A stretch of DNA of 64,000 nt, from positions 3,534,001 through 3,598,000 of the forward strand of contig JAPNXP010000009.1 in the NCBI GenBank assembly GCA_028753945.1. The letters run 5' to 3'. Below the pieces are notes generated by a model. The model saw nothing but the letters and a program-made list of their open reading frames with translations, was not told where the DNA came from and ran no database searches. The position numbers and the translations under genes are program-made. How positions within the stretch are numbered: position 1 is the first letter of the stretch; each line of letters starts with the position of its first letter. The stretch comes from Hexactinellida sp. DTS-2022 (Eukaryota; Porifera; Hexactinellida). Below, piece by piece: positions 11,962-52,402 of this stretch.

Positions 11962-12748
11962 CATGGCCTACTTAATATACGGCCGTGTATGTCACCGAGA
12001 AGGCCAAAAAAATAGAAGGCCAGTTTATAAATTTAATTCTAAGCTAAACTATGCCTCCTATTCTTATTATTTAGGTTGTATATGGGGTAATCAACCATTG
12101 CGAGTCTAATGGAACCACTTTTGAGAATATCAGATTTGTGGTTAAGCTGTTTAGGCGCCATTTAATGATGACACCACAAATATACTAAATATACAATTCG
12201 AGTCTAAAAGAACTACGAGAAAATGAAGATATTTTGCTAATATGCTTAGTATACATTTCCGAATATATAATGAGAATGATTATATATAAACCAGCAATTA
12301 TATAAGTTTTATGGACGAAAATAGTAAGTTGTAACTCGGATACTACTTGTATTTTAGCATGTGGTTGCTTTATAAATTCTAGAATTTTCAGAATTTCGCC
12401 ATTTCGTGATTTAGTAGCCTTGGGAGTGTGAAATAAGTCCCTATTTTAGTATTCCTGTTATAAAATTATCAGAAAAGTAAGAAGAAAATGAAATTTATGA
12501 TATTTAAAAAAATTTCATTTTACCATAAATTGTTACCGTCACCATGAAATGGCGCCTAAACAGCTTAACCACAAATCTGAGATTCTCAAAAGTGGTTTTA
12601 ACGGACTCGCAATGGTTGAATACCCGTTATACAACCAAAATAATAACAATAGGAGGCATAGTTTATCCTAGAATGAAAATTAGAAACTGGCCTTCTATTT
12701 TTTTGGCCTTCTCGGTGACATACACGGGCGTATATTAAGTAGGCCATG
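11962..12748. mobile_element. 787-bp MITE with ~205 bp TIRs
   Basis: The arms 11962-12170 and 12540-12748 are inverted copies, both beginning CATGGCCTACTTAATATACG (second arm with one change). Inner words include GTGGTTAAGCTGTTTAGGCG. The flanks share at least GAGTGT, consistent with a 6-9 bp target duplication. Removing the element joins the surrounding coding frame (SEYTL to LLNKKF). A second copy is at 51668-52402. No coding capacity. Superfamily uncertain. Confidence 0.8.
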
Positions 12749-49487: not shown

Positions 49488-51504
49488 TTATTTATAATTA
49501 CGGGATTTTAGAACAGAAAGAATGTTCACAGGATGTATTAAAAAGATCTGAGGGTCAACAGACATAGGCAATGGAAGAGCATTCTTCATGTAATAATCAA
49601 TTAAATCAACAACATTATCAAAAATATTGAAAGAACGAAGGTCTAAACTATATTTTGTGGGATTGCTTAGAATAAATATACCAAAGGTTTTCACATTCTT
49701 ACCAGCTCTAACAGTAAGCAAAATATTTCCTGGTCTAGATTGACTAGTACGAACAATGAAATCACCCTCGTTCAAGAGTACTTCACAGGCAGCGTCACTA
49801 GTCAAAAAATCACAAAACCAAACTTGCTTAGTGAGGGGAATTGATCTATCAATAAAACAACTTGGTTTTTGAAAAGATTTATCATTAAAATATGTATTGC
49901 ACTGTGATATTAGTTGATTTGAGTCAACTTTAGCAATATTAGAATCAATTGTATGTTTTGACATACGAAAGCAGTCATTATAAGAAACAAGTATGGGATT
50001 CTTTAAATAAACTCCACTATAGTATGTATGATGCAAAAGTAGGTGTTGTACGAGATCATTTAGGTCGTCGAATTCACCAGCAATAAGGTCAGTTGATATT
50101 GTTCCTTCCTCCGTGGTGTTTGCGTAAATGCATTGTATTTCTTCTTTGAAAACAAAACTAAGTATATAGTGAGATTCAGCTTCCCAAACCAAAAAATCAC
50201 CATCATTTTTAAGGCAGCTTTGTACATATTGCTTGGTTACAGACCCATGCATCCAGGTATTCGAATTATTCTGATATAAATCAACAATTCTGGATCTTTT
50301 AGGCAAACTTCTCCGCGTTTGGAAATGAATACCTCTCTCAATCCGCACATATGTATTATGAGTTGGGATTATATGAGAATTGTTGAGATAATAGTCAATT
50401 AATTCTCCTACACACGAAAAGATTGGCTCATTCTTAATGTTGACACCTGAATGGGATATTAAAAGTGGGATTTGGAATAAGAGATCACGGTATAGTATAG
50501 AGAGAACTAAGTGACCTAAACTACAAGGAGAAAAGCTTAGACGAACAAGAAAATCGCCCTCACACTCCAGCATTTGTTCTGATTCGTCACGTGTTAATGC
50601 TCCATGAAACCATTCAAATTCCATAAGAGAATCATAAACTATGTTAAAAGAAGCAGAATCATCAAAGTGAGGTGCATTATCCTCAAAAATGTAAGAAGTT
50701 TCATCAGGGAAAGGGGTAGAGCCCGCCACGTTTTCCGTCACTGGTAGTTCTTGAATTTGAATCGAATCAATGAGTTGGTCATCTAGCTGAACACTCAGCT
50801 TGAGGTCAGATATTTTTGACTCTGTAACAATAGAATGGTATACATGCTTAAGAATGCAGCTTATATCATTAGAAGATCGTACCTTTGCCGGTATCCGAGA
50901 TTTTGAAAGAGAGAGCTCAGCAGTAAACTTGGAAACAAAAGTATCCTGAATAGAGGGCCCACGCTTCTCAGCAGCGCCAACAGCATGAACTATTTGCATC
51001 GTTAGACAAAAGGGTGATTTACAAAATGGAAGAGACTGAGATTTTATACCAAAAAAGGTTTTTACACTTGCAGGACGAAATAGTTTGTAAGTGTTCACAA
51101 TAATTATTTTAGGGATTTTGGACCATGCTGTTAACGGATCTACAAGATCATTAAATATAGTCTGATAATCAACACCAAAACCATCTTCAAATATTAAACT
51201 CTTTCCATCCTGGTAACCACTAAATATGAACAAAATACAGGGATATTGTTTCCGAGTAATAGAATAATTTAGTTTCTTAAGTAGTAACTGAAATTGGTCA
51301 TATTTAGCACCAAATAGAGAAACAACGAAAAATCCGACCTCCTTCAATGTAAGGTTGAGATTCCTCTCATCAAATACAGATCCTTTAATCTGAGGGAACT
51401 TCACGTTTTTATCAACATATGAATTTACAATCAGGATAGCGTATCCAGTATATTCTTTAAAAGGAAGTATCGAAGCCGTTGTTAATTTAGAAAAAGTTTT
51501 AGCT
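49488..51504 (-). CDS. caspase-like pseudoenzyme with three SH2 domains
   Basis: Minus-strand exon, open for about 670 codons; the 5' limit is a likely acceptor (TTATACTTAG) near 51504, since no ATG is in frame and the caspase fold already starts at EYTGYAILIVNSYVDKN. Numbering from the GTG at 51404: p20-like region 1-110 (FDERNLNLTLKEVGFFV; CILFIFSGYQDGKSLIF), p10-like region about 131-205 (MQIVHAVG; DISCILKHVYHSIVTE). The catalytic His site (S-H-G) reads S-G-Y (residue 63) and the Q-A-C-R-G site reads N-T-Y-K-L (Cys replaced by Tyr 106), so it should not cleave substrates. Then SH2-1 (264-356, WFHGALTRDES, FLVR with R288), SH2-2 (384-473, FLVW: the phosphotyrosine Arg is Trp 407) and SH2-3 (529-625, FIVR, R552). 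It ends TAA at 49488. No breaks. Likely cytosolic phosphotyrosine-binding adaptor; function inferred. Confidence 0.85.
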
Positions 51505-51667
51505 AAGTATAATGTGTTATAATATAAAACTAGAGCTTAGCCGACAAGTTGTACCTGTTGAAGCACGAAAATTTAGTGGTTGATTGATTGATAGTAGTCA
51601 TAGTACCCCAAGTTAAAAAGCTGTTTCGCACAGCTGTAATTTTAGATATCTTCGTCATGTATTCATA

Positions 51668-52402
51668 CATGGCCTACTTAATATACGCTATATATGTCGC
51701 CGAGAAGGCCATTAAACAGATAGCACAGTTTCTAATATTAATTCTAGGTAAAACTATGTCTCCTACTGTTATTATTTGAGTTGTATATGGGGCAATCAAA
51801 CATTGAGAGTCCAATGGAACCACTATTGAGAATCTCAGATTTGTGGTTAAGCTGTTTAGGCGCCATATAATGCTGACACCACAATATACTATATATACAA
51901 TTCGAGTCTAATAGAACTAAGAGAAAATAAAGATATTTTGCTAATATACTTAGTGTACATTTTTAGAATAAATAATGAAATGAATATATATTACCCAGCA
52001 ATTATATCTGTTATATGGACGAAAATAGTAAGTTGTAACTCGGATACTACTTGTATTTTTAGCACGTGGTTGCTTTATAATTTTAGCAGCCTTTGGAGTG
52101 TGAAATATCTCTCTCTATTTTGTATTCCTGTACTAAAATTACTAGAAAGTAGGAAGAAAATGAAATAAATGATATTTGAATTTTTGTCATTTCACCATAA
52201 ATTGTTACCTTCACCATGAAATGGGGCATAAACAGCTTAACCACAAATCTGAGATTCTCCATTGGACTCACGAGGATTGATTACCCCATATACAATGCAA
52301 ATAATAACAATAGAAGGCGTAGTTGAGCTTAGAATGAAATTCATGAACTAGTCTTCTATTTTTTGGCCTTCTCGGTGCATACACGGCCGTATATTAAGTA
52401 GG
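51668..52402. mobile_element. MITE with ~200 bp TIRs, second copy
   Basis: Same family as 11962-12748: CATGGCCTACTTAATATACG at the left, CGTATATTAAGTAGG at the right, inner GTGGTTAAGCTGTTTAGGCG. Lies about 165 bp from the 5' end of the caspase-SH2 exon, in its likely intron or promoter. Flanking duplication not resolved. Confidence 0.8.

Follow-up and report, generated by a model that had tools for sequence, protein, structure and literature searches.

Caspase recruitment, as far as it is known, uses death-fold domains, and c-FLIP, for instance, is recruited via N-terminal tandem death-effector domains. The pairing of a dead caspase fold with a live caspase is well described for c-FLIPL and caspase-8 (PMC11121540). 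Evidence has also been provided that caspase-8 phosphorylated by Src attracts separate SH2 proteins (PMC6320982) and that synthetic chimaeras joining a death-effector domain to a PTB or SH2 domain make tyrosine-kinase signalling lead to apoptosis (work cited in PMC2575513). In the TNFR-caspase and LRR-caspase hybrids of amphioxus (PMC2575513), too, a caspase domain is combined with an unusual module, there upstream of it; they keep the QACXG active-site motif, and SH2 is not mentioned for them in the available part of that paper. In one clade, SH2 and caspase are alternative C-terminal domains and, in the available text, do not occur together (PMC8195603). We describe here a gene of the glass sponge Hexactinellida sp. 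DTS-2022 whose predicted product has the order pseudocaspase - SH2 - pseudo-SH2 - SH2. It lies in a stretch of 64,000 nucleotides, hereafter the window (contig JAPNXP010000009.1, positions 3,534,001 to 3,598,000; C18:3534001-3598000 of the host genome, 112.4 Mb in 18 contigs). Its component parts are of known kinds and their combination has no literature match: within the available text of open-licence papers, preprints apart, no published report of a dead caspase joined to SH2 domains was found, in line with the initial annotation, which knew of no vertebrate or insect protein of this domain order. Likewise, the words caspase and SH2 are absent from the main text, in its available part, of the glass-sponge genome papers PMC10280926 and PMC10282587.

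Results

A single open frame encodes a pseudocaspase and three SH2 domains

The frame, first put at about 670 codons and ending at 51504, is open over 682 codons and reaches 51536, so that the former end falls inside it. Its features are the following.

49488..51536, minus strand: pseudocaspase-SH2-SH2-SH2 gene, 682-codon open frame, stop codon at 49488-49490
50742..51461, minus strand: predicted caspase fold, residues 26-265, with p20-like and p10-like parts and no recognisable cleavage linker
51213..51215, minus strand: Tyr108 at the catalytic His position (the His of caspase-6 L-S-H-G aligns with Tyr108)
51087..51089, minus strand: Tyr150 at the catalytic Cys position (N-T-Y-K against Q-A-C-R in the caspase-6 alignment)
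50997..51086, minus strand: residues 151-180, p20/p10 linker region, zero Asp or Glu in 8/8 covering rows
50373..50612, minus strand: SH2-1, residues 309-388, FLVR Arg332 kept in 8/8 covering rows
50010..50255, minus strand: SH2-2, residues 428-509, pseudo-SH2, FLVR Arg replaced by Trp451 (codon 50184-50186) in 9/9 rows
49578..49820, minus strand: SH2-3, residues 573-653, FLVR Arg596 kept in 9/9 rows
51477..51479, minus strand: codon 20, ACG (context ACA-ACG-G), candidate non-AUG start, where homology with P0004 and P0006 begins

Given the stop density in this region, chance would produce about 1e-15 frames of this kind, and a chance open frame was thus rejected.

The caspase part has lost its catalytic residues

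Both structure models predict the alpha/beta fold of caspases (clan CD, C14), complete with p20 and p10, so that a caspase fold, which the initial annotation would have given up had none been found before residue 205, is located at residues 26-265. The structural match came from a second-look aligner that only re-ranks Foldseek candidates, the 50 best Foldseek matches listed for the full model being all SH2 proteins. Pfam Peptidase_C14 aligns with residues 31-130 at 17.6 bits, below its cut-off of 21.4; the domain search proposed for C14 and SH2 thus recovered SH2 three times and left C14 under the threshold. The loss of both catalytic positions, also foreseen, is confirmed: Tyr108 and Tyr150 are invariant in the 8/8 covering rows of an alignment of nine, the remaining sequence, P0008, not reaching these positions. 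The catalytic His and Cys of an active caspase are therefore absent from this conserved protein with a predicted caspase fold, which defines it as a pseudocaspase. The set of Arg residues for a P1 Asp is incomplete as well, the first Arg of caspase-6 R-R-G, which we take to be part of the S1 pocket set for P1 Asp, being aligned with Ile in 7/7 covering rows. Arg192 is kept in the p10-like part, in a weakly supported register (probability 1.1), and the same part carries a conserved block, GAAEKRG..DxFVSKF.

Residues 151-180 hold no Asp cleavage site between the large and the small subunit and, as they lack Asp and Glu altogether, no caspase-type activation cut is expected there. The protein thus differs from the effector caspases 3, 6 and 7, with Tyr for both catalytic residues and no zymogen cleavage expected. 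Its caspase part is 11% identical to that of the vertebrate pseudocaspase c-FLIPL (CFLAR), and we do not claim orthology. A Pfam search (E up to 10) found SH2, two DUF families and the weak C14 match in the frame, and no N-terminal tandem death-effector domains such as characterize the c-FLIP family. Whereas c-FLIP is recruited by its N-terminus, the window protein would be recruited by its C-terminal SH2 domains.

Two SH2 domains with the FLVR arginine flank a pseudo-SH2

Pfam found SH2 three times, the two DUF families overlying SH2 stretches. The three tandem domains first claimed are therefore present, with the reservation that the second is a pseudo-SH2: the phosphotyrosine-binding FLVR arginine expected of an SH2 adaptor is found in SH2-1 and SH2-3 and not in SH2-2, whose Trp451 is aligned by HMMER with the FLVR R of PLC-gamma1. 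SH2-2 is 54-60% identical to its counterparts in P0004-P0007, against 42-55% for the other two; being as conserved as these, it is a conserved pseudo-SH2. The best PDB sequence matches were the SH2 domains of SHC (3.2e-8) and FER (6.9e-7) for SH2-1, the C-terminal SH2 of PLC-gamma1 (5.4e-6) for SH2-2 and SHP2 (PTPN11, E 2e-13) for SH2-3. Unlike these proteins, the window protein has no phosphatase, kinase or lipase, and it has three SH2 domains of which the middle one lacks the Arg.

The protein is conserved among its relatives

Among about 5.8 billion proteins, eight matches (P0001-P0008) were found. P0001 to P0007 are full-length or near full-length, with identities of 88, 76, 68, 48, 48, 46 and 44%, respectively, P0003 being devoid of the N-terminal portion of the caspase domain. 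P0008 is the truncated hypothetical protein LOD99_11314 (432 residues) of Oopsacas minuta, also a hexactinellid. It is orthologue-like, with the p10-like part and SH2 domains, and differs by lacking the p20 part and much of SH2-1; the only names given to it are hypothetical and SH2 domain-containing protein. A profile search restricted to the candidates with the most shared words yielded one further match, a FER-like kinase covering 10% of the query. A profile search for stand-alone relatives of the pseudocaspase part, limited by words and length, found P0008 alone.

In the tree, the window copy groups with P0001 (100/99) and next with P0002 and P0003 (100/100). We used protein identity in domains versus linkers as a stand-in for dN/dS. 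Identity to P0004-P0007 is 50-56% in the caspase part, 42-60% in the three SH2 domains and 16-37% in the three linkers, which agrees with the conservation initially proposed. A relative-rate count gave 28 changes on the window lineage and 21 on that of P0001 (two-sided p 0.39), 30 sites differing in all three sequences. The window lineage is not accelerated, and a relaxed or decaying copy was rejected on this basis.

The start codon

No in-frame ATG precedes residue 180 of the frame. The tblastn matches of P0004 and P0006 begin exactly at codon 20 (51479), where Thr is found in these two proteins and Met in P0005 and P0007; P0001, P0002, P0003 and P0008 end short of it, and the listed P0001 and P0002 proteins start at a Met aligned to Phe26. 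The ACG at codon 20 stands in a strong initiation context. It is thus possible that translation starts at this non-AUG codon or in an unseen upstream exon. An inspection by eye, non-exhaustive, found no frame-compatible ATG exon 5' of the frame. A trans-spliced leader has been reported for the genome of Aphrocallistes vastus (PMC10282587).

A second pseudocaspase-SH2 gene in the host genome

The whole protein has four matches in the host genome: itself, two pieces of one frame on contig C16, and the SH2 of a frame on contig C1 that also holds RasGEF. The C16 frame is the following.

C16:5308564-5310216 (L005:3565-5217), plus strand: pseudocaspase-SH2-SH2 paralogue, one open frame, 551 codons

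The return search with this frame recovered only itself and the window gene. It contains C14 at 22.2 bits, above the cut-off, and two SH2 domains. Its alignment to the window family spans 432 columns (probability 99.3, E 1.1e-20) and is poor in the p10 part. In this alignment, Tyr stands at the His position (M-G-Y-S) and Phe at the Cys position (D-T-F-D) of the C16 frame. The existence of this paralogue makes the architecture that of a duplicated family, which was perhaps already catalytically dead before the duplication.

Other caspases of the host genome and a candidate caspase-SH3-SH2 gene

Counted exon by exon, the host genome has 64 C14 and 62 SH2 matches. The window and C16 genes are absent from the 64 because they are too diverged, so that more such genes could be missed. 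A motif search of 65 loci, several of them overlapping, gave 20 distinct S-H-G ... C-R/Q-G pairs. Only one pair of C14 and SH2 matches lies on the same strand within 30 kb, on contig C5, 1790 bp apart.

C5:973626-977351 (L022:3127-6852), plus strand: candidate five-exon gene with four GT-AG introns, an intact-looking caspase and a Src-like SH3-SH2

By Pfam, its product has C14 at 99.6 bits, SH2 at 39.3 bits and no SH3. The caspase keeps S-H-G and N-G-C-R-G and aligns with zebrafish caspase-3 (E 1.7e-22); Src SH3-SH2 matches the C-terminal part (E 1.2e-12), and this alignment crosses the last splice junction. Since exon 3, read without splicing, meets a stop codon and an in-frame ATG precedes exon 4, the caspase exons and the SH3-SH2 exons, a candidate fusion, could also belong to two neighbouring genes. 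The C5 caspase groups with two NHL-type caspases (96/93), apart from the pseudocaspases, and the two kinds of fusion may thus be independent. Descent of the pseudocaspase from the NGCRG subfamily of the host, considered from the likeness of N-T-Y-K to N-G-C-R, is given no support by the tree, where the branches are long, and hhalign gives no significant match between the pseudocaspase and the C5 caspase (probability 1.1). By eye, much of intron 1 of the C5 candidate gene (L022:3399-3920) consists of minisatellite copies of the exon 1 end together with its splice donor.

Several other caspase frames were observed in passing.

L062:1978-3747, plus strand; L063:2738-4441, minus strand; L064:2925-4664, minus strand: single frames in which another part follows an N-G-C-R-G caspase; Pfam detects NHL repeats in the two scanned, L062 and L063
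L009:1-2265, plus strand; L012:1498-3690, minus strand: long frames of 1859 and 1559 codons, each with a C-terminal caspase preceded by weak COR-A (Roc-COR) matches under the Pfam cut-off
L066:3115-5829, minus strand: Ig-Ig-caspase protein (Ig and C14 by Pfam), similar to a MALT1 paracaspase

The L012, L013 and L014 pieces are 90-94% identical copies on three contigs.

Genomic neighbourhood

The window has 29 other frames of at least 110 codons. Twenty were scanned, and the six with a Pfam match are all of transposon type (PIF1 helicase, two TNP-like, DDE_3, FLYWCH and MULE), which bears out the transposon-rich setting noticed initially. Rfam gave zero matches in the window at gathering scores. 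Two copies of a repeat were located.

51668..52402: short transposon-like terminal-inverted-repeat element, 735 bp, 189 bp upstream of codon 20
11962-12748: the other copy of this element in the window

Of 1051 first-look candidates in the host genome, 39 other copies of the element were scored, at 78-83% identity.

Discussion

We propose that the window gene could encode a non-enzymatic pseudocaspase adaptor recruited by phosphotyrosine, similar to c-FLIP with SH2 domains in place of the death-effector domains. We rank this reading, which is drawn from sequence and structural models, first, with a probability of roughly 0.45, on the basis of the c-FLIPL/caspase-8 pairing, the recruitment of SH2 proteins by Src-phosphorylated caspase-8 and the synthetic chimaeras. 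With their phosphotyrosine arginine retained, SH2-1 and SH2-3 would dock the adaptor onto doubly phosphorylated products of tyrosine kinases, a doubly phosphorylated partner being favoured by the two Arg-bearing domains flanking an Arg-less one. The Trp-bearing SH2-2 would have another role, structural or phosphate-independent. The pseudocaspase fold, without an acidic linker residue for cutting, would serve as a protein-interaction module and would most likely pair, via the caspase dimer face, with catalytically competent sponge caspases, which could be switched on or off in this way at sites of tyrosine phosphorylation. Phosphotyrosine binding by SH2-1 and SH2-3, the caspase partner and the direction of the effect are what we infer from the architecture. 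A link between tyrosine kinases and cell death would also follow; it is made more credible by what else this genome contains, namely a paralogue of like architecture, many motif-bearing caspases and the candidate C5 caspase-SH3-SH2 gene.

Several points weigh against this proposal. The caspase partner is assumed, the models are of unpaired chains, and those of the whole chain have a low pTM. Moreover, the caspase domain is very diverged, with 11-18% identity to solved structures among the matches listed, and in the tree its long branch is shared by the C16 paralogue alone (93/89, not starred), so that its closest catalytic relative is not singled out. The same divergence, with a Pfam score under the cut-off and no catalytic relative grouping in the tree, speaks for a strong contender, which we rank second: a phosphotyrosine scaffold without any link to caspases or death, in which the fold would be kept only as a stable platform that binds some partner of another kind, as might occur in signalling for immunity, adhesion or the syncytium. 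The GAAEKRG..DxFVSKF block could then be a new binding surface. However, the complete p20+p10 fold predicted in both models and the presence of possible caspase partners in the host weigh against a caspase-independent scaffold.

The remaining explanations appear far less probable. One is a defensive role as decoy or guard, in which a caspase-like protein with SH2 domains would bait pathogen factors or buffer phosphotyrosine signals. Some PDB matches are, by their titles, complexes of caspases with bacterial effectors (CopC, OspC3), but this tells us no more than that effectors target caspases. No observation connects the gene with infection, and its evolutionary rate is ordinary (28 against 21 changes, as above); we consider this idea improbable. 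A decaying gene or a chance frame in a transposon-rich stretch can be argued from the lack of an in-frame ATG before residue 180, the repeat 189 bp upstream and the transposon remnants around. It can hardly be reconciled with the expected chance count, with the seven relatives known as (near) full-length proteins of 44-88% identity, with domains conserved far above linkers or with the unaccelerated rate. Equally hard to believe is that the enzyme remains active by way of unusual catalytic residues: the Tyr found at both catalytic positions is polar and invariant, but the His, the nucleophilic Cys and an Arg position of the S1 pocket (Ile, 7/7) are lost and the C16 paralogue has Phe at the Cys position.

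Glass sponges are largely syncytial, and whole-cell death is problematic there. A bolder extension of the adaptor proposal, which we regard as rather unlikely, would be a phosphotyrosine-gated caspase system in which the pseudocaspase adaptors encoded in the window and on C16 act with the catalytically competent C5 caspase and its own Src-like SH3-SH2, and tyrosine kinases directly assemble and control caspase complexes without death-fold adaptors. If true, this would add to death-fold domains and receptor fusions a third way of recruiting caspases. The presence of SH2 domains and a caspase fold in one conserved polypeptide of early-branching animals makes directly testable the question of whether phosphotyrosine alone can recruit and regulate caspases, and it gives, in largely syncytial animals, a pseudocaspase for comparison with c-FLIP.
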